Both the position numbers and the translations under genes were made by a program. The notes beneath the pieces were generated by a model, which ran no database searches, had not been told where the DNA came from, and was given only the letters and a program-made list of their open reading frames with translations. This document shows, piece after piece, positions 16,561-59,998 of a stretch of 64,000 nucleotides of DNA. Source of the DNA: Tumebacillus lacus (lineage in GTDB: Bacteria; Bacillota; Bacilli; Tumebacillales; Tumebacillaceae); the NCBI RefSeq assembly GCF_026410385.1, contig NZ_JAPMLT010000005.1, forward strand, positions 186,001-250,000, in the 5' to 3' direction. Every line of letters begins with the position of its first letter. Position 1 is the first letter of the stretch.

Positions 16561-16662
16561 CCGATTCACCCCACAGTCAGTCTCGTACTCTACCAAATCC
16601 CGCGCGCGAGTTGGTGTTGGTATGACTATATCATGGAAAACAGAACCGAACAAGCGTTCCGG

Positions 16663-47328: not shown

Positions 47329-48387
47329 ATGAGCGGCCTGTTCACCCTCGCCGAACAACTGCAAGGACTCAACCGCACTCTCGACACGCGACGCCAAGAA
47401 CTCGTGCCTCGGAGCAAACTGCGCGCCGGGCTGGAAACGTACGTCGGTGAGTTTCGCAAAGCCCGCCGCTTGGACGAGACGGCGACACAGCGCCTGTTTC
47501 AAGGGCGGTCCCTCGTCGGCGTCGACGGCTCCGTCAACCAATTTGGCGGCAACTATCCCTACACCATCCAACTGTTCAAAGCGCTCGCCAAATCCACGCA
47601 GCGTGACAAACACAACGAAAGCGACGTCGAGATCGTCTCCTTGTTCTCGCCGCTGATCGGCGACGACCACCGCGCCGTTCGCCGCTTCATGGAAGAAAAG
47701 CGCGAAGAACTGCGCGTCGCCCCGCAGGAGGATCGCGAGTTGGAACGCGACCTCGCCGAGTCCACCGCCTACGGGATGCTGATCGAACAGCGCATGGTCG
47801 AGATGGAGATCGACGTCGCGATGGACGCCATCCGCCGCTTCGACCCGTACCTCGTGATGATGGACGGCGGATTTTCCCGGCTGAAGGGCAAGGGCGGCGA
47901 AAAATGGGACGAGCTCGCCGACCTCGCCGAGCTCAAAGGCACCATCCTCGTCGGCGTTATCGAAGAAGTCGGCTCCTATCGCTTAAAATCACGGTTGCTG
48001 CCGGAAGAGCACCTGCTCGAAGGCTTCATCCGCGGTCACGACCGGGAGATCCTCTTTGGCACCCTCGACGAAGGCGAGTGGCTGAAGACCAGTCTGGAAA
48101 ATCCGATCAAAAACGACTTCTACACCGTCTTCACTCGCCTCGCCGACCAACCGCAGGCGGGGGCGTGCGACTTCCTGCGCTCGCAGGCTGAGCACGCGGA
48201 CGACATCATCGATTTTCTCTACACCATCACCCCGCACAAATCGCGGGGCATCCCGCTCTGGCTCGACCTCGTCGACGCCGAAGCGCGCCTCACCAAAAAA
48301 CAGATCGACCTGATCGTGCGCAGCAACCTTGACCTCGCGCACATCGAGACCTTTTTACGACCGCAACGGGAACGGAGGGACTTCTAA
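47329..48387 (+). CDS. nurA: NurA domain 5'-3' nuclease
   Basis: A 352-residue protein with the NurA-type RNase H-like nuclease core: Asp66 in LVGVDGSVN (first metal ligand), the central MMDGGFSRLKGKGG segment, and the C-terminal RSNLDLAHIE. N-terminal residues 1-60 are helical. In archaea NurA is a dimer that degrades DNA ends while docked on the HerA hexamer. ATG at 47329 follows GGAAGGAG. It lies three bases before herA, so the pair is translationally linked, as in archaea. Firmicute NurA is little studied. Confidence 0.85.
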   Translation: MSGLFTLAEQLQGLNRTLDTRRQELVPRSKLRAGLETYVGEFRKARRLDETATQRLFQGRSLVGVDGSVNQFGGNYPYTIQLFKALAKSTQRDKHNESDVEIVSLFSPLIGDDHRAVRRFMEEKREELRVAPQEDRELERDLAESTAYGMLIEQRMVEMEIDVAMDAIRRFDPYLVMMDGGFSRLKGKGGEKWDELADLAELKGTILVGVIEEVGSYRLKSRLLPEEHLLEGFIRGHDREILFGTLDEGEWLKTSLENPIKNDFYTVFTRLADQPQAGACDFLRSQAEHADDIIDFLYTITPHKSRGIPLWLDLVDAEARLTKKQIDLIVRSNLDLAHIETFLRPQRERRDF

Positions 48388-48390
48388 CAC

Positions 48391-50256
48391 ATGCAGATCG
48401 TCGGCCAAACCACTCAGCTCGAAGCGTGGGTGGCCTCACGCACCCGCCCCTTTTCCATCAACGAGATCTTGATCATCGAAGACAGCGGCCACCGCGACCC
48501 GAAAGCGGAAGTCGTCGAGACCCGCACCTTCAACCGCTACATCCCGCTCGCCTCCGAGCAGCACAACCTCGTCGACGACAGCGTCCTGCGGGGACTGCGC
48601 CAAGTGGGGTTTGACATCGAAGACGAAGAGATCCACCTCGCCAAACTGCGCCTGCTCGAAGAGCTCGCCACCCCCGTCCGCGTCGGATCGCGCGTGCGTG
48701 TGCCGCAGTTTTCCGAAGTCGAGAGCCTCCTCATCAAACGCCGTCCCAAGGACGGCCTGACCCTTGGCGTCATCCAAGGCACCCGCGAAGTCGCGGAAGG
48801 CATGCCGCCCGATCTTCAGGACGTCGCGTTGCTCTTCGACAAAGAAGACGGCGTCCAGCGTCAAGACGGCGTCCCGTTCGTCTTTGACTACCGCTCGATG
48901 GATCAATATCCGCACATCGGCATCTTCGGCGGCTCCGGCTCCGGCAAATCGTTCGGCACGCGTGTTCTATTAGAAGAAATCATGAAACAGCGCGTCCCGG
49001 CCGTCGTCTTCGATCCCCATTTCGAGATGACGTTCGACAACGAATTTCCCGGCCTGCCCGACCACTACCGCGAGTCCTACAAGAAAAAATTCGTCCTCCT
49101 CGTCGCGGGCACAGACATCGGGATCGACTTTGTCGACCTGACAGCCGACGATATCGTCTCGCTGCTTCGGGCGTCGTCCGGCTCCATCACCGACGCGATG
49201 GAGACAGCCATCAAATCCATGCACAAAAAAGGGGACAGCTACCTGTCCTACTCCACCCGCATGGCCAACCTGGCCGAAGCGCTCGACAACGAAGCGGAGA
49301 TCCGCGAACAAGCCCGTGACCTCGCCATGCTGCCGGTCGACGAGCGAGAACGCGTCCACACCCTCTCCAAACTGCTCAAAGAATACAAAGACAAAGTCGG
49401 CGGCTTCTCCGGCACCTTGCGCTCCGTCATGCGGCGCATGTACCGCCTTGAGATGGAAGGTGTCTTTACCAACGCGGGCACCAAATTGGTCGAAGAAGCG
49501 TTCATGAAACGCCAGCTCGTCGTCATCCGCGGCTCCATGTACTTCTTGAACGTCTTCGCCTTCTACGTCGTCCGCAAACTCTATCGCAAGCGCCGCGAAT
49601 ACCGGGATTCCATCCAAAAAGGTCGTCCCATCGAAGAGGCGTTTCCGCCGTTTGTCATCATCACCGACGAGGCGCACAACTTTGCGCCCAAAGGCGACAT
49701 CCCGGCCCCGGCCAAAGGCGTTCTCAAAGAAATCGCCCAAGAAGGCCGTAAATACGGCGTCTTCCTCGTCTTTGCCACCCAAAGACCGGCCTTGCTCGAC
49801 GACACCATCACGGCCCAGCTCTCGACCAAAATGGTCTTTCGCACCGTGCGCTCCGTCGACATTGCCGTCATCAAAGAAGAGACCGACATCACGCCCGAAG
49901 AGGCGAACCGCCTGCCGTACCTGTCGTCCGGCACCGCCTTCATCTCCTCGGCCATCACCGGTCGCACCACATCCGTGCGGATACGAGTCTCCAAAACCAC
50001 CTCGCCGCACTTCAAAAACCCGTTCGAAGAACTCGAAGAAGCGTTCGCCGAACAAGACAGCAAACTCTGGGAGGCACTGGAGGGGCAATTGCCCATCGAT
50101 GCGTTCAACCTGAACGCCTACCTCACCGAAATCGGCCGCAAAGTCGGCCGCCCGGTCACCTACGACGAGTTGGAGCACGCCCTCGACGACTTTGCCGATC
50201 AGGGCAAACTCGTCCGGGAAGACACCCCGTTTGGGTCAAGATATAAGAAAGTTTGA
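48391..50256 (+). CDS. herA: HerA-type DNA translocase/helicase (DUF87)
   Basis: A 621-residue hexameric FtsK/HerA superfamily ATPase. Residues 1-140 form a HAS-barrel (SINEILIIE ... FNRYIPLA). Walker A GGSGSGKS lies at 180-187, Walker B in FVIITDEAHNFAP near 420-430, followed by the sensor VFATQRPALLDDTI. The C-terminal part has a DUF853/HAS-like beta cap. HerA translocates DNA in both directions and with NurA resects ends to 3' overhangs. It directly follows nurA, so it most likely forms HerA-NurA. Confidence 0.92.
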   Translation: MQIVGQTTQLEAWVASRTRPFSINEILIIEDSGHRDPKAEVVETRTFNRYIPLASEQHNLVDDSVLRGLRQVGFDIEDEEIHLAKLRLLEELATPVRVGSRVRVPQFSEVESLLIKRRPKDGLTLGVIQGTREVAEGMPPDLQDVALLFDKEDGVQRQDGVPFVFDYRSMDQYPHIGIFGGSGSGKSFGTRVLLEEIMKQRVPAVVFDPHFEMTFDNEFPGLPDHYRESYKKKFVLLVAGTDIGIDFVDLTADDIVSLLRASSGSITDAMETAIKSMHKKGDSYLSYSTRMANLAEALDNEAEIREQARDLAMLPVDERERVHTLSKLLKEYKDKVGGFSGTLRSVMRRMYRLEMEGVFTNAGTKLVEEAFMKRQLVVIRGSMYFLNVFAFYVVRKLYRKRREYRDSIQKGRPIEEAFPPFVIITDEAHNFAPKGDIPAPAKGVLKEIAQEGRKYGVFLVFATQRPALLDDTITAQLSTKMVFRTVRSVDIAVIKEETDITPEEANRLPYLSSGTAFISSAITGRTTSVRIRVSKTTSPHFKNPFEELEEAFAEQDSKLWEALEGQLPIDAFNLNAYLTEIGRKVGRPVTYDELEHALDDFADQGKLVREDTPFGSRYKKV

Positions 50257-50286
50257 AACCTATCACCCTCCCATTCGTAAATCAGA

Positions 50287-50292
50287 TATAAT
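50287..50292 (+). promoter_or_regulatory. -10 box of the AIM24-like gene
   Basis: Perfect TATAAT about 85 bases upstream of the start at 50376; no good -35 was seen. The gene likely has its own promoter instead of belonging to the nurA-herA transcript. Confidence 0.35.
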
Positions 50293-50375
50293 AAGGAAAT
50301 AACTGTCTGTGTATCTCCTCTCTACAAACGACCACACTGAACGGAGATACGCCATACGAAGGGAGATTTCAAACC

Positions 50376-51167
50376 ATGAACGCGCACGAAATCGACTATA
50401 AAATCCACGGTGACGACATGCAATTTGTCGAGATCGAACTCGACCCGCAAGAAAGCGTCATCGCCGAAGCGGGAGCCCTGATGATGATGGAGGATGGCAT
50501 CCAAATGGAGACCATCTTTGGCGACGGAGCCGACGGCGGCGGCAAAGGACTGATGGGCAAACTGTTCGGGGCCGGCAAGCGCCTCCTGACCGGCGAATCC
50601 CTCTTCATGACCGTCTTTACCAACACCGTGCCGGGCAAAAAGCACGTCTCCTTTGCCTCTCCGTACCCGGGCAAGATCATCCCGATCGATCTCTCGGCGA
50701 TGGGCGGCAAAGTCATCTGCCAAAAAGACGCCTTCCTCTGCGCGGCAAAAGGCGTATCTGTCGGCATCGAATTCCAGCGCAAACTGGGTGCGGGCTTCTT
50801 TGGCGGCGAGGGCTTCATTATGCAGAAGCTCGAAGGGGACGGCCTCGGCTTCATCCACGCGGGCGGCACCATCTACGAGCGCGAGTTGCAGCCGGGCGAA
50901 GTGCTCCGCATCGACACGGGTTGTCTCGTCGCCTTCACCCATAACGTTGACTACAACATCGAATTTGTCGGCGGCGTCAAAACCGCCCTCTTCGGCGGCG
51001 AGGGCCTCTTCTTCGCCACCTTGCGCGGACCGGGCAAAGTCTGGGTGCAGTCTCTGCCGTTCTCCCGTCTCGCGTCCCGCGTCTTTGCAGCGGCCCCGCA
51101 AGCGGGAGGCCGCAGCAAAGGCGAAGGCTCCATCCTCGGCGCCATCGGCGACTTCTTCGAAGATTAA
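50376..51167 (+). CDS. AIM24/TIGR00266 family protein
   Basis: A 263-residue beta-rich protein of the TIGR00266 (AIM24, YwpF-like) family: [20 protein letters not shown] at the N-terminus, [22 protein letters not shown] and [19 protein letters not shown] near the C-terminus. AIM24 is needed for respiratory complex organisation in yeast mitochondria; bacterial homologues are of unknown role. GAAGGGAGA precedes ATG 50376. Terminator downstream. Confidence 0.88.
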
Positions 51168-51189
51168 ATTTCATTTTCAAATAAACCCA

Positions 51190-51231
51190 AAAACGTCTTG
51201 CAGATCACATTTCTGCAAGACGTTTTCTTTT
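51190..51231 (+). terminator. Rho-independent terminator of the AIM24-like gene
   Basis: AAAACGTCTTGCAG / CTGCAAGACGTTTT perfect 14-bp stem, then Ts. Confidence 0.88.
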
Positions 51232-51305
51232 ACAATAGGCATAGACACCATTTCTAAACATAGTCATATAATAAGTGTGTAAAGACACAAAGGAGGCAAC
51301 TACCC

Positions 51306-52181
51306 ATGACCACCCCTCAACGCGTGGCAGAAAATGTGACGGGGGATTTCTACGTCACCACAGCTTGCATCGACTGCGGCACGTGCCGGATGCTGGCACC
51401 GGATGTGTACACCGAGACCGGCAAATACTCCGCCGTGCGGCATCAGCCGCAGACCTCGGACGAGGTCCAAAGATCTGTGTATGCCTTGTTGGCCTGTCCG
51501 ACAGCGGCCATTCGGTGTAACAACCCGGATCTTAAAGCGACCATTCAAAACGCCGCATCCGACTTCCCTTTGCACCTCGAAGGAGGAGTCTACTACAACG
51601 GCTTCACCTCCCGCCATGCCTACGGAGCCAGCTCTTATTTCATCCAGCACCCCGATGGGAACTGGATGATCGATGCACCGCGCTGGCTGCCGTCACTCGT
51701 CAAAAAATACGAAGCCCTCGGCGGCATCTCCACCATCCTCTTGACCCATCAGGATGACATCGGTGATGCGGAGCGTTATGCGGCGCACTTTGGGGCCAAG
51801 CGCATCATCCACGAGTACGAAAAGCACGCCCAGCCTGATGCGGAGCATATCCTCCAAGGGCGAGAGGACATCCAGTGGCACCCTGATTTTCAGATCCTGT
51901 TCACCCCTGGCCACACCAAAGGGCACGTCTCCTTGCTCTACAAAAATCGCTTCCTCTTCAGCGGTGACCACCTTGCGTGGGACTCGGAGCGCGACACTTT
52001 CAAATACTACAAAGAATTCTGCTGGTACTCCTTCGACGTCCAAAAAGAATCCATCGCCAAACTGACCCAGCATCGTTTTGCGTGGCTCTTGCCGGGTCAC
52101 GGGGGTCAAAAACTCCTCGACGAAGCCGACATGCATCGTCGTTTGACCGAACTTGTTGCTATAATGAAAAGCAACAACTAA
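51306..52181 (+). CDS. Ferredoxin-like domain fused to MBL-fold hydrolase
   Basis: A 291-residue protein. Residues 14-72 form a short ferredoxin with Cys21, Cys24, Cys27 and Cys64 (CIDCGTC ... CP), suited to one Fe-S cluster. Residues 85-285 are an MBL-fold domain: the metal motif is TILLTHQDDIGDAERY instead of HxHxDH, then FTPGHTKGHVSLL, FSGDHLAW and LLPGHGG. The fold may be a redox-linked hydrolase. ATG at 51306 follows AAAGGAGG. The gene lies between unrelated genes. Confidence 0.85.
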   Translation: MTTPQRVAENVTGDFYVTTACIDCGTCRMLAPDVYTETGKYSAVRHQPQTSDEVQRSVYALLACPTAAIRCNNPDLKATIQNAASDFPLHLEGGVYYNGFTSRHAYGASSYFIQHPDGNWMIDAPRWLPSLVKKYEALGGISTILLTHQDDIGDAERYAAHFGAKRIIHEYEKHAQPDAEHILQGREDIQWHPDFQILFTPGHTKGHVSLLYKNRFLFSGDHLAWDSERDTFKYYKEFCWYSFDVQKESIAKLTQHRFAWLLPGHGGQKLLDEADMHRRLTELVAIMKSNN

Positions 52182-52203
52182 CGGAAAAACGGGGGTACGG
52201 GAG

Positions 52204-53352
52204 ATGGTCAGCATCCAGTTTCGAGATGACGAATACAAGGTGGAGCGCGGTGGTGAAGTCATCGCCCTCTTGCCCAAAGAATACGCCTTGTTTCGCTGTC
52301 TCTACGAAAACAAAAACCGAGCCTTCTCCCGCGAACAACTCCTGAATCAAGTGTGGGCCTTGGAAGCCCCGACCGATCGGACCGTTGACGACCATGTTTA
52401 TCGGCTCCGCAAAAAACTGAGTGTCTGGGGGCACCTGATGACCCTTGAGACCGTGCGGGGCATCGGATATCGTTTGACAGTCAAAGCGGCAGAGCAGATG
52501 GCAAATCCTTTGCTCGGTGATCCTGAGTTCATGGAACAGATCCAGCGCGTGTTGACCAAATATCAGCAAGTGGGGCAAGGAGACGCCATACGCATGCTGT
52601 TGGAGCAGCAGAAAATGATCGGGATCGAAGAAGTGCCGTTTTTCACCAACTACCTGCATATGATCGCGGGGGAGTTTGGGCGATTGGTGGAATCGGACCT
52701 TCCCTTTTGGGAGCGGGCGTATGCGTTGTTGCATGTGTACTGTCAGGTGACAGAGGATCTGGAGCAAGCCCTTGATTTTTATGAACGGGCGATCGCGGCA
52801 AAAAAACTGCCCGAGCCGGAGCATCGGGAGTTGGAGATCCTCAATGTCTTGGATCTCTATCTCTGGACGGGGCGAGCGACCAAAGCTGTGGAACGGCTGG
52901 CCATCACGCATGAGACCGTCAAAAAATACGACATGGAGCCTTTCCTGACGCCGGTGGCGATCACCGAGGTCAAAGTCTATCTCTCTGCGGGGGATGACGA
53001 GATGGCGGAGGCCAAACTGCGCGAGTCGGAAGCTTTGTTGGAGATGCATCCGTATCTGCGGGAGACGGGGAACTTTTACATCACCAAAGGGATCTGGTTG
53101 CTGTATCGGGGTCAAAGGAGGGAAGGGGAGCGATGGATCGAAGAGGGATTTGAGGTTCTGGAGCGATCCCGATTTGTCCCGATAACCTTGAGATCCCTTC
53201 GCTACGTCACCCACTACCTCACCACCAAAATCCAAGCCCCCGACCTGCTCGCACGCTATCGAAAGCGCGAAGCGGCCCTCGCTGACCGATACAGATACAA
53301 AACCCTTGAACCGGCGGTCTACCGGCTGCTCCACCAAAACCTATCTCCTTGA
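52204..53352 (+). CDS. Winged-helix DNA-binding protein with TPR-like C-terminus
   Basis: A 382-residue protein. Residues 1-95 are an OmpR/PhoB winged-helix domain (ALLPKEYALFRCLYENKNRAFSREQLL then VDDHVYRLRKKL and TVRGIGYRL) without a receiver domain. Residues 105-375 are helical repeats similar to TPR or BTAD (HVYCQVTEDLEQALDFYERAI). This is the SARP/AfsR-like design, a DNA-binding unit joined to a signal-sensing repeat. It directly precedes the three hairpin elements at 53375-53735. Confidence 0.8.
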   Translation: MVSIQFRDDEYKVERGGEVIALLPKEYALFRCLYENKNRAFSREQLLNQVWALEAPTDRTVDDHVYRLRKKLSVWGHLMTLETVRGIGYRLTVKAAEQMANPLLGDPEFMEQIQRVLTKYQQVGQGDAIRMLLEQQKMIGIEEVPFFTNYLHMIAGEFGRLVESDLPFWERAYALLHVYCQVTEDLEQALDFYERAIAAKKLPEPEHRELEILNVLDLYLWTGRATKAVERLAITHETVKKYDMEPFLTPVAITEVKVYLSAGDDEMAEAKLRESEALLEMHPYLRETGNFYITKGIWLLYRGQRREGERWIEEGFEVLERSRFVPITLRSLRYVTHYLTTKIQAPDLLARYRKREAALADRYRYKTLEPAVYRLLHQNLSP

Positions 53353-53374
53353 CGAGTGCGGGACGAACGACAGG

Positions 53375-53447
53375 ACCGGCAGACGATGCTTGGAGGCGAG
53401 ATAGGGGCGCAAGCGACTTCGCGAGCCGACAAGTATCGTCTGAGCGG
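53375..53447 (+). repeat. Structured hairpin element, copy A
   Basis: A 63-nt core hairpin (53380-53442). Arms CAGACGATGCTTG and CAAGTATCGTCTG pair over 13 bp including one G-T position; outer ACCG/CGGT extends it. The loop contains GAGATAGGGGCGCAAGCGAC and CTTCGCGAG, with its own short stem. Copies B and C share this core. Confidence 0.75.
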
Positions 53448-53509
53448 TCCGGTGCCAGGTCACCGGGCAGGTGCTTTTGATCTGCAAGGGTGGGCTGTTG
53501 GAAAGGGAG

Positions 53510-53590
53510 AAGGCACGGCAGATGATGCTTGGAGGCGAGATAGGAGCGAAAGCGACTTCGCGAGCCAACAAGTATCATCTGCCGGGCCTT
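53510..53590 (+). repeat. Structured hairpin element, copy B
   Basis: Same architecture and same 63-nt span as copy A. The arms are CGGCAGATGATGCTTG and CAAGTATCATCTGCCG, with AAGGC/GCCTT outside. Relative to copy A, one base in the left arm changed from C to T and its partner changed from G to A, so pairing is kept. Confidence 0.75.
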
Positions 53591-53660
53591 GGCACCTGGA
53601 TTGCGAGAGCTGGTTTTTAGTGATGATGGAGGCTGACCATGTTGGGTACCTCCGTCGGCG

Positions 53661-53735
53661 GGGGGCGGGGAGGTTCCATCTCGTTCGCGAAGTCGCTTAC
53701 GCTCCTATCTCACTCGATTGGAACCTCCCCACCCC
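53661..53735 (-). repeat. Structured hairpin element, copy C, inverted
   Basis: The same core on the minus strand (53681-53715, GAGATAGGAGCGTAAGCGAC then TTCGCGAA), but the arms are entirely different: GGGGAGGTTCCATC and GATTGGAACCTCCCC, extended by GGGG/CCCC. Shared core with unrelated but paired arms argues for a fold-constrained element. Confidence 0.7.
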
Positions 53736-53790
53736 GCTCTCGCCCGAGTGGTCGACGCAAGGGCGAAAGGATTGGGATGGCTTGCGCCAC

Positions 53791-53873
53791 TGACATGCTC
53801 ACTGATATGCTCCCTGATATTGCTCCCTGATATTGCTCCTATTGCCCTTATTGCTCTGATATTGCTCTGACAT
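53791..53873 (+). repeat. Degenerate short tandem repeat of TGATATTGCTCC
   Basis: About six imperfect copies of a 12-15 base unit (TGACATGCTC, TGATATGCTCCC, TGATATTGCTCCC twice, TTATTGCTC, TGATATTGCTC). It stands between the hairpin elements and the MFS gene. No reading frame uses it convincingly. Confidence 0.6.
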
Positions 53874-53922
53874 TTCCTCTTTATGATGATCCTTAGATGG
53901 TCATTGGAAAGGGGATTTTTTT

Positions 53923-55170
53923 ATGGCACAAGGGAGCATTTGGGGGAATCGAGTGTTTCGGCGGATGTTTGCGGCGTATTCGCTGTCCACGTTTGGGGAT
54001 TGGTTCGATATCATCGCCATCGCCACGTTGCTGGGTCTGATTTGGAAAGTCGATCCCGTATGGATTGGGCTGACGCCCATTATGTACGCATTGCCGGGGA
54101 TCTTGTTCGGGCAGGCGGCGGGAGTGATCGCGGACCGGGTGCCGAGACGGACCTTGATGATCACAGCCGATCTACTGTCTTGCGGGCTGACTGTCGGGCT
54201 GTATGTTGCAGAGACACCGTATCTGATCTTTCCGTTGTTGCTCCTGCGGTCGTTGGCGGGCGTGTTCAACGTGCCGGCCCAGCAGTCGCTGACGCGGCGG
54301 GTCGTCGCAGAGGAGCAGTTGCTGCAGGCCGCGTCGTGGAACGGGCTGGTCAACCAGATCGCCAAGATCGGAGGACCGTTGATCGGCGGGGCCCTGCTGG
54401 TCTGGCTGTCGCCTCAGGCGTGCCTGCTGGTGAATGCGGTGAGTTTTCTTATCTCCGCCCTGATCTTGATCTCAACCGGGCGGATCGAAGGGGATACCGC
54501 GAGTGCGAGTGAAGAGGCGGTCAAACGTTCGTTTCGCGAGGAATGGCGCGAAGGCTGGCAGGTGGTGTTGGGCAATCGCGTGCTGCTGTCGACCACGATC
54601 TTCGGGTTCTTTGGGATGATCGCAGTGGTGTTGATCGATTTTCAGACCACCGTGCTCCTGCGCGACCTGTATCCGGGGAACACACAGTTGTTCGGCTGGT
54701 GCATCGCGACCTCCGGCGTCGGGTCGGTCATCAGCATCACCCTGCTGAAACGGCAGAAAGAACTTCGTTCCTATGGATGGCTGTTCGGTGGCGGATATCT
54801 GCTGATCGGGATCGGCTTTGCGGGGAACGGGCTGTTGGAGCCGGGAGCTGCGGTGGGCTGGCTTCTCGCATTCTCTTGGCTGGTCGGCCTCGGAAACGGA
54901 ATGTGGATCGTCACCGGGACCTATTTATTTCAAAAAGAGCCGCCCAAAGAGACCATCGGGCGCGTCAACGGCATCCAAAACTCGATCTCCTCGGTGGTGC
55001 TCGTCACCGTCCCGCTCATCGGGGGGTGGCAAGTTCAAGAGTGGGGAGCCTCGTCAGCCTTTTTTGTTAATGGCTGCGCCGTGGCAGTCGTCGGCCTGAT
55101 CGGCGTGCTGTTTCAAGCCAAGATCTGGAGTCGGAACAACGCCCAAAAGAGCCACCATCTTCCCCAATAG
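53923..55170 (+). CDS. MFS family transporter
   Basis: A 415-residue protein with about twelve membrane helices of the MFS_3 type (EntS-like exporters): FRRMFAAYSLSTFGDWFDIIAIATL at the N-terminus, GQAAGVIADRVPRRTLMITADL (loop 2-3 signature) and NVPAQQSLTRRVVAEEQLLQAASWNGL. It probably exports a small molecule or drug. ATG at 53923 follows GGAAAGGGG. Its hairpin terminator overlaps the stop codon. Confidence 0.88.
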   Translation: MAQGSIWGNRVFRRMFAAYSLSTFGDWFDIIAIATLLGLIWKVDPVWIGLTPIMYALPGILFGQAAGVIADRVPRRTLMITADLLSCGLTVGLYVAETPYLIFPLLLLRSLAGVFNVPAQQSLTRRVVAEEQLLQAASWNGLVNQIAKIGGPLIGGALLVWLSPQACLLVNAVSFLISALILISTGRIEGDTASASEEAVKRSFREEWREGWQVVLGNRVLLSTTIFGFFGMIAVVLIDFQTTVLLRDLYPGNTQLFGWCIATSGVGSVISITLLKRQKELRSYGWLFGGGYLLIGIGFAGNGLLEPGAAVGWLLAFSWLVGLGNGMWIVTGTYLFQKEPPKETIGRVNGIQNSISSVVLVTVPLIGGWQVQEWGASSAFFVNGCAVAVVGLIGVLFQAKIWSRNNAQKSHHLPQ

Positions 55171-55185
55171 GAGGATGGTGGCTCT
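55148..55185 (+). terminator. Terminator-like hairpin at the end of the MFS gene
   Basis: AGAGCCACCATC / GATGGTGGCTCT, 12-bp perfect stem; the TAG stop lies in the loop region. Only a weak T-run follows. Confidence 0.6.
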
Positions 55186-55293
55186 CCTGTTATTATTCAA
55201 TCCCCCATATCTTGCAGGAAAAATGGTATCTTTGTTGAAGACGTTCCCTTTAGGAAAACGAGATTTTGATCAGAGAAAGGAGGATCTCCTCCT

Positions 55294-56283
55294 ATGAAAC
55301 TATTATATCTAACGGATACTCATATCCGCGCCAGTTCGCCGCAGAACCGCACCGACGATTTTGTCACCACCCTCAAAAATAAAATGAGGGAAGTGAACGA
55401 GATCGCGCAACGTGAAGGTGTGCAAGCGATCCTGCATGGCGGGGATTTTTTTGACATTCCGTCGCCAAGCCTCGCCGTATCCGGCGATTTTGTCTCGATC
55501 ATGAGCGAAGCAGGCGTCCCGATCTACGGGATCGCAGGCAACCATGACATATTCGGCCACAACCCCGACACCCTGCCCAGAACCGTCCTCGGTTTCCTTG
55601 ACCGTCTGGGCATCGTCAAACTGATCCACCCGGGCCAACCGCTCCTCCTCAAACACAACGACGTGCAAGTCCAAATCTCGGGCCAGCACTATCATTACGA
55701 TCTCGACCGACGCGACCCCCGACTCGACTACGTCATCGACCACGTCGAAGGGGACATCGGCATCCACCTCGTCCACGGCATGCTGATGGACAAAGCGTTT
55801 ATCGAAGGCGTCGCCCACACCCGCGTCGACCAGATCCTCGACACCAAGGCGCACCTGACCCTCTGCGGCCACAACCACATCGGCTGGCCGGAAGTCAAAC
55901 ACGACGGCAAGATCTTCTACAACCCGGGCGGTCTCACCCGCCTCTCCAACCACCCGGCAGACGCAGGCCGCACCCCGCAAGTGCTGATCCTCGACATGAC
56001 CGGCGGCGAACTGAAAATCAAAAAAGTCAAACTCAAATCCGCCCCACCCGGCGAAGAAGTCCTCGACCGCTCCAAAAACGAAGAGGCCGCCTTCATGCAA
56101 CAACGCCTCGCCGAGTTTGTCCAAGGCATCAAAGCAGCCGGCGACTACAAAGTCATCGACATCGGCGCCATCATCGACGAGATCGCCGGCCGCGAAGGAC
56201 TGCCGACCTTCGTCCGCGAAGAAGCGATGTCCCGCATCGCAGCCGCTCAAGAACGCCTGTCCAAAGGGGAGGGTGAACGATGA
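55294..56283 (+). CDS. Mre11/SbcD-like DNA nuclease
   Basis: A 329-residue metallophosphoesterase. All five phosphoesterase motifs are present: Asp8 and His10 (LTDTHI), GGDFFD, GNHDIFG, His in HLVHGML and CGHNHIGW. It is shorter than typical SbcD (about 390), with only a small cap domain at the C-terminus. Mre11 makes endo- and 3'-5' exonucleolytic cuts at DNA ends, controlled by Rad50. Its last codons overlap the ATG of the Rad50-like gene by four bases (ATGA), a strong sign of a complex. GAAAGGAGGA precedes ATG. Confidence 0.9.
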   Translation: MKLLYLTDTHIRASSPQNRTDDFVTTLKNKMREVNEIAQREGVQAILHGGDFFDIPSPSLAVSGDFVSIMSEAGVPIYGIAGNHDIFGHNPDTLPRTVLGFLDRLGIVKLIHPGQPLLLKHNDVQVQISGQHYHYDLDRRDPRLDYVIDHVEGDIGIHLVHGMLMDKAFIEGVAHTRVDQILDTKAHLTLCGHNHIGWPEVKHDGKIFYNPGGLTRLSNHPADAGRTPQVLILDMTGGELKIKKVKLKSAPPGEEVLDRSKNEEAAFMQQRLAEFVQGIKAAGDYKVIDIGAIIDEIAGREGLPTFVREEAMSRIAAAQERLSKGEGER

Positions 56284-57875
56284 GCACCAAAACGATCCGC
56301 AACCTGCGCATCGAACATTTCCAATCCCATGAACTGACCGAGATGGCGTTCGACGACGGGTTGAACGTCATCGTCGGCCCGTCCGACTCCGGCAAATCGG
56401 CCGTCATCCGAGCCCTGCGCTGGCTCCTCTTCAACGAGCCGCGCGGCTCCGACTTCATGCGCGTCGGCCACAACAACGTCCGCGTCTCCATCGAGCTCGC
56501 CGACGGCGCACGCGTCACCCGCGAACGCACCCCTTCGAAAAACCGCTACATCGTCGTCAACACTGAGGGCGAAGAGCAGATCTACGAAGGATTTGGCAAC
56601 TCCGTCCCGCAGGAAGTCATCGACGTCACCGGCGTCGCAAAAGTCATGCTTGACGAAGACACCGAGACCGTCCTCCACCTTGGCACCCAGCTCGAACCGG
56701 CCTTCTTGCTCGCAGAACCCGGCTCGATCAAAGCCAAAGCCATCGGCCGTCTCAACGGCGTTCACATCATCGACGCCGCCTCGCGGGACACCCATCGCGA
56801 CCTGACCCGCCTCACGCAGGAGGAAAAACAATACCGCGAACAGCTCGCCGAAGTTGAAGAGGAGCTCGAACAATTTTCCGACCTGCCGTATCTGGAAAAC
56901 ATCCTCCTCCTCGTCGAGATGAAGCAAGCCGAACTCAAAGCGCTTCACGCCCGACGCGAGAAGTTGCAAACCCTGCATCAAAAATACAAAGCCACCCGCG
57001 CCGATCTCGCCCTTACCGACGAGATCCTCTCGCGCACCGAACACCTCGACCGCGCCTCCCTGCAAGCGGAGCGCGCCGTCACTTTGCAAACCAAGACCCT
57101 GCGTCTGCGCCAAGCCGCTCAGAAACTGGCCCGCGTCGCCGACGGGATCGAGCAGACCGACCGCATCCTTGCGGCCACCGGCGAGCTTGACCGCGCAGGG
57201 GACCGCCTGCACACGGGCGAGGCCAAAGTCGCGCGGTTCCGCCGCCTGCGCACCCTCGCCGATCAGCGACAGCAGACGAACGCCGTCCTGCAAAACGTGG
57301 ATCGCATCCTGCACCAAACAAACGGCCTTGATGACGCCGCGAGCCGCGTCACGCGACTCGAACGGTCGAAACACCGCCTGTCCACGCTGACAGCCCTCGC
57401 CGCCAAACGCAGCGACACCGGCGGCATGCTCACCAAAATCGACCGCATCCTCGCCCGGACCGAGCCGGTCGCAGCGGCGGAGCAGAGCCTCGACATCCTC
57501 GCCCAAAAACGCGCCAAAGCCAACGCCCTGCGTGATCTGCACAACAAAAAGCAAGACGTCGAACGACTCCTCTCCCGCCTGGGACAGATCATGACACAGC
57601 TCGAACGGACGGCACGGGCCGAAGACTCGCTCGCTCGCCTGCAATTCCTGACCGACCGTCAACAGCGTCTGATGCAAATGCAAAACGGCCTGTTCGACGT
57701 CACCGACCGCTTGAAAAAAGCGGACGTCTACCTGCACACCAACGCGATGGAACTCACCCAGCTGATCGACGAATACAGTCGTGAACTGAAGCAATCGGCT
57801 TCCTGTCCGGTCTGCTTTACACCGATCGACGAACACACGACCGAACGCCTGCTGGAAGAATTCCGCAGCTTTTAG
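56280..57875 (+). CDS. Rad50-like protein, N-terminal ATPase half with coiled coil and zinc hook
   Basis: A 531-residue protein. Residues 1-165 are an N-terminal SMC/Rad50 ATPase lobe: Walker A GPSDSGKS (33-40) and Q-loop Gln138. Residues 180-505 are a long coiled coil composed of 47-residue repeats. The CPVC zinc hook (509-512) stands near the end, and only 19 residues follow it, so the returning coil and the Walker B lobe are missing from this chain. They are supplied by the gene at 58157. It overlaps the Mre11 gene by 4 bases. Zinc-hook dimers would bridge two such half-molecules. Confidence 0.88.
   Translation: MSTKTIRNLRIEHFQSHELTEMAFDDGLNVIVGPSDSGKSAVIRALRWLLFNEPRGSDFMRVGHNNVRVSIELADGARVTRERTPSKNRYIVVNTEGEEQIYEGFGNSVPQEVIDVTGVAKVMLDEDTETVLHLGTQLEPAFLLAEPGSIKAKAIGRLNGVHIIDAASRDTHRDLTRLTQEEKQYREQLAEVEEELEQFSDLPYLENILLLVEMKQAELKALHARREKLQTLHQKYKATRADLALTDEILSRTEHLDRASLQAERAVTLQTKTLRLRQAAQKLARVADGIEQTDRILAATGELDRAGDRLHTGEAKVARFRRLRTLADQRQQTNAVLQNVDRILHQTNGLDDAASRVTRLERSKHRLSTLTALAAKRSDTGGMLTKIDRILARTEPVAAAEQSLDILAQKRAKANALRDLHNKKQDVERLLSRLGQIMTQLERTARAEDSLARLQFLTDRQQRLMQMQNGLFDVTDRLKKADVYLHTNAMELTQLIDEYSRELKQSASCPVCFTPIDEHTTERLLEEFRSF
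56877..57803 (+). repeat. 47-residue (141-bp) tandem repeats in the Rad50-like coiled coil
   Basis: D-x-I-L-like motifs recur at residues 247 (DEIL), 294 (DRIL), 341 (DRIL), 388 (DRIL), 435 (GQIM) and 482 (DVYL): exactly 47 apart each time, without gaps. A more diverged unit fits residues 200-246. Within units, Ala at position 13, Leu/Val at 17, Leu at 31 and Leu/Ile at 43-44 are mostly kept. The nucleotide spacing is exactly 141 bases (57159, 57300, 57441). Confidence 0.85.
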
Positions 57876-57905
57876 GCAGCAGATATAAAGGAGGTACGAC
57901 CCCTG

Positions 57906-58160
57906 ATGAGCACCGCAATGGAAAACAAACTGTCCGTACTCAAAGAAGGCCTCGCCAAAGCGAAAGACATGCGCTACAAAGCCGAACTGAAAAAAGACTC
58001 CCTGCTCAAACAGCAAGAAGAAATCCTCGAACAGATCCGCGCCGAGCAAGTCGACCCGGACTCGCTGGAACTGGAGATCGACAAACTGGAGCAAGAGATC
58101 GCCGCTCTGGCCGATGAAGTCGATTCCCTGATCCCGTGGGATCTGATCAACAAGCAATGA
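57906..58160 (+). CDS. Small coiled-coil protein of the Rad50-like operon
   Basis: An 84-residue, highly charged protein that is almost wholly helical: LSVLKEGLAKAKDMRYKAEL, KKDSLLKQQEEILEQIRAEQ and ELEIDKLEQEIAALADEV. It stands between the two Rad50 halves, with AAAGGAGGT before it, and overlaps the next gene by four bases (ATGA). It may be a linker or a free coil segment that joins the halves, or a regulatory partner. No known family was recognised. Confidence 0.75.
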   Translation: MSTAMENKLSVLKEGLAKAKDMRYKAELKKDSLLKQQEEILEQIRAEQVDPDSLELEIDKLEQEIAALADEVDSLIPWDLINKQ

Positions 58161-58834
58161 CGAACGGAACCGATTTCTCCCGCATCGATCTCGCGGTCGC
58201 TTCTCTGCGCGATCATTACAACCGCCGTCGCGGGGAGCAGGACGCCGTCCTGCGCAAGAAAAAGACGGTGGAAGATCGCCTCGAAGAAAAGCGGCACGAC
58301 ATCGACAAACTCCAGCAGGTAAAAATTCTGCTCCAAGAGTCGGCCGTCTTTGCCCGCGAGCAGGCGCGCCGTCAGATCGAGACGATGGTCACCAACGCCT
58401 TGCAGTTTATTTTCGGTGACCGCGACATGGAGTTTCGCGTCACCATCGACGAAGTGCGGGGACGCGCCGAGGGAGAGTTTCTCGTCGTGTCGTCGTACGG
58501 CGGCGAGATCCCGGTCGAGACGCGCCCGCAGGACGCGCGCGGCGGCGGGGTCGTCGACGTGATCTCGCTGGCGTTGCGGGCTGCTTTGCTGCACGCCAAC
58601 AAACCGAAGCTTGACGGCCCGATCATCCTCGACGAGCCGGCCAAACACGTGTCGGACGAGTACTCGCGCCAGGTCGCCGAGTTTTTGAAACAGCTCTCGA
58701 CCGCGTTCGGTCGGCAGATCATCATGGTCACGCACAACCAGCATCTGGCGAACACGGGGGATACTTCCTACATCGTCGAGATGCGTTCGGGGAAAAGCTA
58801 TGTACGAGTCTTTCAGGCGATCGAACAAGCCTAG
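58157..58834 (+). CDS. Rad50-like protein, C-terminal ATPase half
   Basis: A 225-residue protein. Residues 15-75 are a short coil. The rest is a C-terminal Rad50/SMC lobe: signature-like [19 protein letters not shown] (in place of LSGGE), Walker [21 protein letters not shown], and the switch histidine [11 protein letters not shown]. It lacks Walker A, so it can only work with the gene at 56280. ATG at 58157 overlaps the preceding stop; the upstream frame start at 58136 is not used. A two-chain Rad50 is rare. Confidence 0.85.
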
Positions 58835-58872: not shown

Positions 58873-59268
58873 ATGGACACGATGGGCAGACACGTCATCG
58901 CCGAGCTGTGGGAATGTGATTCCGACCTGCTCAACGATGAAGCGGCAGTCGAACGGATCATGGTCAACGCGGCTCTCGAATCGGGAGCCGAGGTTCGCGA
59001 GGTCGTGTTTCACAAATTCACACCGCTGGGCGTCAGCGGCGTGGTGATCATCTCGGAGTCGCATTTGACGATCCACAGCTTCCCTGAGCACGGGTATGCG
59101 AGCGTGGACGTCTATACCTGCGGCGACCGGATCGACCCGGCCGTCGCCGCCGATTACATCGCCAAAGGCCTGCGCACCAAGCGCAAAGAGACCGTCTTTG
59201 TGCCGCGCGGCCAAGGCAACATGAACGCGAAAGATCTGAAAGTGGAACTGGTGGAAGCAGCGAAATAG
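58873..59268 (+). CDS. speD: S-adenosylmethionine decarboxylase proenzyme
   Basis: A 131-residue Bacillus SpeH-type AdoMetDC, making decarboxylated SAM for spermidine synthesis. [13 protein letters not shown] at the start and [25 protein letters not shown] hold the self-cleavage site between Glu62 and Ser63, where Ser63 becomes the pyruvoyl group. GGGGG precedes ATG. A terminator follows. Confidence 0.96.
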
Positions 59269-59275
59269 GGCAGCG

Positions 59276-59307
59276 GAGAACTCCTTGATTTGGAGTTCTC
59301 TTTTTTT
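59276..59307 (+). terminator. Rho-independent terminator of speD
   Basis: GAGAACTCC / GGAGTTCTC with a seven-base loop and seven Ts, just upstream of the tRNA promoter. Confidence 0.88.
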
Positions 59308-59392: not shown

Positions 59393-59467
59393 GGGGGATT
59401 AGCTCAGTGGTAGAGCACTGCGCTGGCAGCGCAGGGGTCAGGGGTTCAAGTCCCCTATCCTCCACCA
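59393..59467 (+). tRNA. tRNA-Ala (GGC)
   Basis: Acceptor GGGGGAT / ATCCTCC with one G-T pair, anticodon loop CTGGCAG, T-loop TTCAAGT, CCA encoded. First of seven tandem tRNA genes. Confidence 0.95.
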
Positions 59468-59475
59468 ACCATCTC

Positions 59476-59551
59476 GGAGGTTTAGCTCAGCTGGGAGAGC
59501 ATCTGCCTTACAAGCAGAGGGTCGGCGGTTCGATCCCGTCAACCTCCACCA
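59476..59551 (+). tRNA. tRNA-Val (TAC)
   Basis: Acceptor GGAGGTT / AACCTCC, anticodon loop TTACAAG, T-loop TTCGATC, CCA encoded; 76 nt. Confidence 0.95.
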
Positions 59552-59560
59552 TCTTTACTT

Positions 59561-59637
59561 GGAGCTGTGGTGTAGTGGCCTAACATGCCCGCCTGTCACG
59601 CGGGAGACCGCGGGTTCGAATCCCGTCAGCTCCGCCA
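59561..59637 (+). tRNA. tRNA-Asp (GTC)
   Basis: Acceptor GGAGCTG / CAGCTCC, anticodon loop CTGTCAC, G discriminator base, CCA encoded; 77 nt. Confidence 0.95.
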
Positions 59638-59655
59638 TTTTAAAACACAATACAC

Positions 59656-59731
<76 letters not shown>

Positions 59732-59762
59732 TTTACTTTTGAATAAAGCAGCATCACCCGAT

Positions 59763-59837
59763 GCGGAAGTGGCTCAGGGGTAGAGCATCGCCTTGCCAAG
59801 GCGAGGGTCGCGGGTTCGAATCCCGTCTTCCGCTCCA
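59763..59837 (+). tRNA. tRNA-Gly (GCC)
   Basis: Acceptor GCGGAAG / CTTCCGC, anticodon loop TTGCCAA, CCA encoded; 75 nt. Confidence 0.95.
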
Positions 59838-59842
59838 TATCT

Positions 59843-59916
59843 GGAGGTATAGCCAAGTGGTAAGGCATGGGACTGCAAATCCTTGACCCCCGGTTCAAAT
59901 CCGGGTACCTCCTCCA
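59843..59916 (+). tRNA. tRNA-Cys (GCA)
   Basis: Acceptor GGAGGTA / TACCTCC, anticodon loop CTGCAAA, CCA encoded; 74 nt. Confidence 0.95.
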
Positions 59917-59922
59917 TAACAT

Positions 59923-59998
59923 GCTGTCATAGCTCAGTTGGTAGAGCACCACCTTGACATGGTGGGGGTCACAGGTTCGAGTCCTGTTGATAGCACCA
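59923..59998 (+). tRNA. tRNA-Val (GAC)
   Basis: Acceptor GCTGTCA / TGATAGC with one mismatched or wobble position, anticodon loop TTGACAT, CCA encoded; 76 nt. Last gene of the cluster; the cluster thus codes Val twice, with anticodons TAC and GAC. Confidence 0.94.

Follow-up and report, generated by a model that had tools for sequence, protein, structure and literature searches.

What is a set of DNA-end-processing proteins known from archaea doing in a member of the Bacillota, and do its parts belong together there? The question is raised by a stretch of 64,000 nucleotides from Tumebacillus lacus (contig NZ_JAPMLT010000005.1, positions 186,001 to 250,000; the whole stretch is referred to here as the window), in which genes for the nuclease NurA and the translocase HerA lie upstream of genes for Mre11 and a divided Rad50 (Table 1). 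The genome measures 4.18 Mb, and the genus is placed in the Alicyclobacillaceae by NCBI. In Sulfolobus, Pyrococcus and Thermococcus, the same four functions are encoded by the nurA-rad50-mre11-herA operon, often as neighbours, and it is disputed whether HerA-NurA works with Mre11-Rad50 (MR) in resection (PMC12977600, in the part available). The identities that an earlier sequence-only reading had assigned to nurA, herA, mre11 and rad50 in the window were borne out by Pfam and profile matches. HerA, NurA, Mre11 and a Rad50 of three polypeptides are together probably a housekeeping DNA-end-processing set, found where most sampled Bacilli have SbcCD. The most surprising part of this set is Rad50 itself.

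A Rad50 encoded by three genes

The sequence-only reading recognized that Rad50 is split, but described it in two parts and missed a third gene, rad50M, whose product is a coil protein of the PHROG family phrog_18563. The first product, Rad50N, matches AAA_23 (4.8e-15) and phrog_16465 (6.7e-69) and carries a CP.C motif that is invariant among 62 sequences; the Pfam zinc-hook model scores below its cut-off on it (18.6 versus 24.3 bits). Rad50C contains a short coil, RGGG at the place of the ABC signature and the Walker B sequence LDEP. Its profile finds the C-terminal fragment of Pyrococcus furiosus Rad50 as the best match in the PDB (1e-7), and RGGG, LDEP and KH are invariant among 34 sequences. 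Walker A, the hook CxxC and Walker B are all present, but divided between Rad50N and Rad50C. An LSGG-type signature, typical of Rad50 and SbcC, was not found in Rad50C, where the invariant RGGG occupies residues 135-138 and has Arg in place of the Ser of canonical Rad50; a change from Ser to Arg at this position is reportedly harmful in P. furiosus Rad50. Nor is the hook placed between matching coil arms of a single chain. The ascending arm measures 248-348 residues, versus a return of ~80 residues in Rad50M and roughly 60 in Rad50C, the last figure judged by eye.

When the genome_contigs collection (84,980 species) was scanned with a Rad50C alignment, 91 stretches were confirmed, and 80 of them underlie the locus statistics given here. 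By their titles these 80 appear to be Bacillota, to which the named genera presumably belong. Of these loci, 62 are complete, with Mre11, Rad50N, Rad50M and Rad50C each in a frame of its own; the other 18 include stretches ended by a contig edge and orphan C genes. At each of the 62 complete loci the CPxC lies 10-45 residues before the end of the N frame, and no CxxC was found in M or C. In Acetivibrio mesophilus (G046), Mre11, N and M lie together (L150 6675-9408), while the C-half stands at another place, alone between what we take to be folD-like and rny genes (L073 9905-10600). Because the split is kept at all complete loci and the C-half is found elsewhere in A. mesophilus, the Rad50 pieces are regarded as separate proteins. 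Three further genomes (G368, G461 and G503) have Mre11-N-M without C within the 16-17 kb read. In a metagenome-assembled genome of the Thermoactinomycetaceae, Rad50N itself occupies two frames (L121 1926-3437), perhaps owing to a sequencing error.

Between its Walker A lobe and hook, Rad50N is self-similar at lags of 47 and 94 residues, with z of 10.4 and 7.6 for the window protein and mean z of 5.9 and 4.0 over 62 Rad50N proteins. Measured from the conserved D165, the first cysteine of the hook lies at a distance of 250-251 residues in 12 of the 62, 297-298 in 40 and 344-345 in eight, with outliers of 246 and 293 in the last two; the arms of 60 of the 62 thus differ by whole 47-residue units. 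This period was not seen in one YhaN-like protein, nor in two SbcC proteins (L143, 1041 residues; L144, 1004 residues), SbcC being a single chain of ~1000 residues with its hook in mid-chain. It is present in the Rad50N of Bacillus phage vB_BboS-125 (distance 298) and in two of the four plasmid N-halves measured, the exceptions being those of an Alkaliphilus plasmid (L182, z 1.1) and a Geobacillus plasmid (L181, z 2.0), and in a prophage version (L147) lag 47 is present and lag 94 is not. In an AlphaFold2 model of Rad50N that is weak overall (pTM 0.35), the arm helix breaks near residues 199, 253, 301 and 350, and the head matches SMC and Rad50 heads.

P. furiosus Mre11 is the best PDB match of the Mre11 profile, and the phosphoesterase motif residues D8, H10, D51, N83, H84, H161, H193 and H195 are invariant among 32 sequences. 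On NCBIfam, Mre11 reaches neither the Mre11 cut-off (43.1 versus 500 bits) nor that of SbcD (31.4 versus 77.65), Rad50N falls short of Rad50 (65.2 versus 700) and HerA of the HerA equivalogs (60.9 versus 800 and similar). Since none reaches the cut-off of its named family, Mre11, Rad50N and HerA are, judged by these scores, relatives of the curated groups and not members, and HerA is best termed HerA-like, outside the named equivalogs.

For NurA and HerA, domain searches agreed with the sequence-only reading, placing the former in Pfam NurA with a NurA fold and the latter in the HerA core family. The HerA central domain (DUF87) is matched, along with PDB HerA chains 8xau (1.8e-14) and 4d2i (9.9e-13); Walker A (180-187) and DEAH (426-429) are invariant among 14 sequences, and the N-terminal part, where a HAS barrel would be expected, gave no Pfam match at 0.01. 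NurA scores 48.9 bits against a Pfam cut-off of 21, and its D66, E160, D179 and D238, which we take to include the catalytic acidic residues, are invariant among 14 sequences. A NurA profile found no NurA among the PDB sequences, and identity was settled by fold. When the AlphaFold2 model (pLDDT 90.3, pTM 0.87) was compared with 350,542 PDB chains by Foldseek, the top three matches were to chain G of T. kodakarensis HerA-NurA. The best match by VIA-align was S. solfataricus NurA (Z 18.6, 4.0 Å, 260 residues aligned). VIA-align ranks 1-8 are NurA or TdpAB, followed by a putative nuclease of Thermotoga (rank 9, 12.2), Endonuclease V (rank 10, 11.8) and Argonaute from 11.8 down, with Deinococcus radiodurans NurA only twelfth (Z 11.5). 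On the predicted structure, the NurA fold is confirmed.

Co-inheritance with NurA-HerA and the absence of SbcC matches in Bacilli with the set

In class-wide samples of 250 Bacilli and 245 Clostridia (495 genomes), NurA was found in 32 Bacilli and 14 Clostridia, and all 46 carry split-type Mre11; this co-inheritance gives good support to the idea of the sequence-only reading that the four functions form a set. Split-type Mre11 occurs in 33 Bacilli and 18 Clostridia, with NurA in 46 of these 51 (Fisher test 1e-39 in Bacilli and 1e-19 in Clostridia, uncorrected for kinship). Among the Bacilli the Mre11 alignment matches 213 of 250 genomes at 0.001, mostly SbcD-like background, and split-type was taken to mean at least 440 bits (33 genomes), the next scores being 260 (G221), 239 (G205) and then 51 or less. 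In Clostridia, Mre11 was counted to a limit of 1e-30 and NurA to one of 1e-10. G221, with its Mre11 on a megaplasmid, and G205, with its Mre11 in a prophage, have an SbcC match and no NurA; they were omitted from the counts, and their inclusion would make the NurA share in Bacilli 32/35. The class of G044, with four genomes and Mre11 in two, lies outside the 495.

The same pattern holds among 41 relatives, of which 10 have both NurA and strong Mre11 and the other 31 have neither, three weak Mre11 matches (5.5e-4 to 2.9e-6) being omitted. A neighbourhood search in relatives also favoured the sequence-only reading: in all seven sampled genomes of the window's own family, nurA and mre11 share a strand and are ~3 to 20 kb apart, and nurA-herA-mre11-rad50N-M-C are contiguous in G010, from another family of the same order. 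Given this linkage and contiguity, the grouping of nurA-herA with mre11-rad50 is more than chance.

Thirty genomes, mostly isolates and some recurring in the class sample, were picked from the 80 loci. NurA is present in 28, including all 23 that are recA-linked, and the two without it are orphan-C genomes. Where NurA lies outside the Mre11 locus (26 genomes), HerA adjoins NurA on the same strand, within 300 bases in 25 and at 711 bases in one. At the 62 complete loci, NurA and HerA fall within the stretch in 13 (11 contiguous, two Tumebacillus) and RecA in 41; the two kinds of neighbour occur together in none and are both lacking in eight, and rny is found in 39. In an arbitrarily rooted tree built from the Mre11 and Rad50C of 59 loci, of the window and of two phage versions, a clade linked to NurA (support 0.989) separates from one linked to RecA (0.93), with loci that have neither neighbour falling in both. 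The NurA-HerA and MR modules lie apart in the recA-linked clade, and all are neighbours in one clade only. Beside the split MR there is, in one family, a further AAA ATPase/phosphoesterase pair (L146 778-5087) or the phosphoesterase of that pair (L149 6276-7526); we take the pair to be YhaN/YhaO-like.

An SbcC-type match, defined as TIGR00618 at E <=1e-25 and counted in the Bacilli sample, was found in 180 of 250 genomes. None of these is among the 32 that combine NurA with split MR; all 180 fall in the other 218 (Fisher test 3e-21, kinship ignored). Among the 41 relatives the figures are 0/10 with the set versus 21/31 of the others (E <1e-30). G076, the sole member of the Bacilli with strong Mre11 and no NurA, has an SbcC match. 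Eight of 14 controls match at 1e-25, B. subtilis and E. coli among them. An ordinary SbcCD in the window's genome was rejected, the SbcC match there being only a 55-residue stretch (3.8e-5).

The sequence-only reading had set the four genes against AddAB, and the idea that the set stands in for AddAB was not supported. The window's genome carries an AddAB-like pair (1229 and 1091 residues, below curated cut-offs), so the set did not take the place of AddAB there; given this pair and an AddA over its cut-off in G036, replacement of AddAB by the set was rejected. G029 has no AddA match better than 4e-24. What is missing from the window's genome is SbcC, and on these matches the reference point for the set should be SbcCD, not AddAB. 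The AddAB-like pair itself (L145 4430-11390) is divergent, with PD-(D/E)XK nuclease domains in both proteins and scores well below the AddA and AddB cut-offs.

Proposed action and competing explanations

In the mechanism proposed, each of the three polypeptides would contribute a part of Rad50. From Rad50N would come the lobe with Walker A, the CPxC zinc hook and an arm in which a helical unit of 47 residues is repeated about five to seven times. The lobe with the signature and Walker B would come from Rad50C, along with a short coil, and Rad50M would add a helical segment to the returning arm. One ABC head would be formed in trans by N and C, and two such Rad50 units would dimerise through ATP and their hooks, with an Mre11 dimer at the base. 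This complex may open blocked or hairpin ends, whereupon a HerA hexamer would drive the duplex into a NurA dimer and leave DNA for RecA; we infer a contact of MR with HerA-NurA, together with these enzymatic steps and the polarity of resection. A wider proposal, for and against which the balance is about even, is that this Rad50 represents a distinct class, a three-subunit ABC clamp with a trans head and a rod lengthened by 47-residue units, which with HerA-NurA replaced SbcCD in several Bacillota lineages, possibly after phage or megaplasmid exchange.

Split MR is also found on mobile elements. It is present in a prophage and in Bacillus phage vB_BboS-125, with Mre11 downstream in the latter, and in a more divergent form in Microcystis phage Mvi-JY20, whose M frame is named by position only. 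In vB_BboS-125, Rad50N and Rad50M are separated by a gene with an AP2 domain, which may encode a homing endonuclease (L014 5173-5745). Nine plasmid records match Rad50C, and four of the five opened carry a whole split MR, three of them with Mre11 fused to Rad50N and with M and C separate; two of these three also have HerA next to the split MR, with DNA methyltransferases nearby. The genes in the four complete plasmid records are annotated as metallophosphoesterase, AAA family ATPase and hypothetical protein.

Several observations weigh against a housekeeping set in the place of SbcCD. HerA-NurA of T. kodakarensis has been argued not to resect (PMC12977600, same part). Kinship inflates the statistics, the 32 Bacilli genomes falling in eight families, and 38 of the 218 other Bacilli also have no SbcC match. 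No genome reaches the curated cut-off of TIGR00618 and some SbcC matches are fragments; the Bacilli count scored only three candidates per genome, versus up to 14 among the 41 relatives, and the exclusion rests on Bacilli, with Clostridia outside the test. The weakness of the Rad50N model likewise counts on this side. No NurA was found with phage or plasmid split MR in the stretches read (16-17 kb for plasmids), and five genomes have strong Mre11 without NurA (G076, G046, G368, G461 and G503), from which it follows that MR can do without NurA.

These last genomes also speak for the best of the alternatives, namely that split MR and HerA-NurA are two separate housekeeping modules, both useful once SbcCD was lost, with no shared DNA end or contact. 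The distance between the modules in the recA-linked clade fits this explanation, as does the failure of the window's NurA to match any of 50,697 phage records, a collection in which split MR occurs. However, NurA was never found without split-type Mre11 in 46 cases, and the six genes are contiguous in 11 loci and in G010, and two independent modules are considered unlikely.

An anti-phage defence system, comparable to HerA with Sir2 or DUF4297, is more doubtful still. HerA matches PADLOC HerA models (best 8.4e-24), the seventh structural match of NurA is chain G of TdpAB, which we take to act in defence, and two plasmids combine HerA and split MR with nearby methyltransferases. Against this, the set is present in every sampled genome of the window's family, recA adjoins in 41 of the 62 complete loci, the 10 proteins searched from 47.3 to 58.8 kb include none of mobile-element type, and SbcC is missing where the set is present, as replacement would predict. 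PADLOC has no model that matches NurA or Mre11, and PADLOC-based naming was rejected, its matches being only to distant HerA and AAA ATPases. The neighbours of HerA are NurA and an AIM24-like gene, with neither Sir2 nor DUF4297 as effector partner. When the sequence-only reading spoke of a complete alternative resection or defence system, the set it pointed to was real as a co-inherited unit; its defence option is disfavoured by the recA neighbourhood and the missing SbcC.

Breakage of Rad50 by frameshift or sequencing error, suggested by three short frames where one is usual and by the two N frames of L121, has a negligible chance of being correct and was ruled out, the same split, with N ending shortly after the hook, recurring at all 62 loci and in phage and plasmid relatives, and the C-half of A. 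mesophilus lying at another locus.

Gene neighbourhood, known systems and significance

Only three bases separate nurA from herA, and mre11 overlaps rad50N by four. In the Tumebacillus genome herA and mre11 are parted by four unrelated genes; in G010, where herA adjoins mre11, no AIM24 match was found in the 17 kb read. For rad50C, the ATG is the more likely start and overlaps the stop of the preceding gene. A gene that we take to be speD-like follows rad50C here and in six of six family relatives read, and was not found in 17 kb of G010; it is probably part of the mre11-rad50 transcript. The hairpin beyond it is the likely end of that transcript, and the two hairpins suggest, by consensus only, that mre11 to the speD-like gene form one transcript; the consensus scan gave 29 sites versus 14.7 expected in shuffles.

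Table 1. Features of the Tumebacillus lacus window and of plasmid relatives with fused genes
Feature	Position	Strand	Length and description	Evidence or remark
nurA	47329-48387	+	352 aa; RNase H-like nuclease	Pfam NurA 7.8e-13; AlphaFold2 model; structural match
herA	48391-50256	+	621 aa; FtsK/HerA-type translocase	Pfam DUF87 1.3e-16; PDB HerA chains
Non-members between herA and mre11	50376-55170	+	AIM24-like (50376), ferredoxin-lactamase (51306), winged-helix/TPR (52204), MFS (53923)	
Terminator-like hairpin	55148-55185	+	16 pairs, upstream of mre11	Consensus scan only
mre11	55294-56283	+	329 aa	P. furiosus Mre11 match 6.7e-9 (profile)
rad50N	56280-57875	+	531 aa; Walker A lobe, 47-residue repeat arm, CPVC zinc hook near C-terminus	
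rad50M	57906-58160	+	84 aa; helical coil protein	phrog_18563 7.5e-12
rad50C	58136-58834	+	232 aa from GTG 58136; 225 aa from ATG 58157	phrog_15167 5.9e-61
speD-like gene	58873-59268	+	Non-member; follows rad50C	
Terminator-like hairpin with T run	59275-59301	+		Consensus scan only
Plasmid fusions of Mre11 and Rad50N	L148 2780-8830 and L183 4552-10596 (Aneurinibacillus megaplasmid); L180 (Paenibacillus polymyxa pSC2)			

Elsewhere in the window, a ferredoxin-type 4Fe-4S domain and a metallo-beta-lactamase domain are combined in one protein (51306-52181), and seven tRNA genes are clustered directly after the operon (59393-59998). Rfam over 46.0-60.5 kb found tRNAs and nothing else. A scan for LexA-like palindromes gave 41 sites versus 34 by chance, the sole exact one at 16648, distant from the set, and a promoter scan gave no excess above chance.

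The likeness to the archaeal operon extends to the proteins, the NurA fold being close to that of archaeal NurA and the Rad50C and Mre11 profiles matching P. furiosus best in the PDB. The Bacillota set differs in its Rad50 of three genes with a 47-residue arm and RGGG, in the recA linkage of one clade and in its bacterial host. With SbcCD it shares a Mre11-type nuclease, a Rad50-type hook ATPase and apparently the same niche in Bacilli. T4 gp46/gp47 and phage SbcCD-like proteins are MR proteins of phage recombination, with which the split MR of vB_BboS-125 and Mvi-JY20 may be compared; gp46 is a single chain. Deinococcus-Thermus likewise has a bacterial HerA-NurA pair, with a NurA that is the weaker structural match noted above; the Deinococcus pair is treated in PMC9960219, and Mre11-Rad50 is said to be missing from D. 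radiodurans (PMC12977600), in the parts of these papers available. Mre11/Rad50 fusions such as Mimivirus R555 recall the three plasmid versions described here. The fusions in the available part of PMC3175470 differ in being fused, not split, with no separately encoded C-half described; among them, those of a Bacillus phage and Anaerostipes, each with one P-loop segment that the paper did not observe, may belong to the type described here. A review, itself available in part, mentions in one line that Firmicutes have homologues of NurA and HerA (PMC8708640), and S. aureus is without NurA-HerA according to an excerpt of PMC11442139. In those portions of the open-licence literature that were accessible, no split Rad50 and no HerA-NurA with Mre11 in Bacillota were found, which is weak evidence of absence.

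The finding bears on how DNA ends are handled in these bacteria and on Rad50 in general. Joint inheritance in Bacillota, including Halalkalibacterium halodurans (L105, L162), makes the resection question testable by gene removal. With Rad50 divided at the hook, its halves can be purified, titrated and labelled separately, and the 47-residue rule provides a natural length series for the Rad50 arm. Annotation is corrected as well, in that split MR genes on plasmids now stand under generic names. If the proposed assembly is true, the head would be separable by losing its C-subunit, a form of clamp control that is absent from single-chain Rad50.

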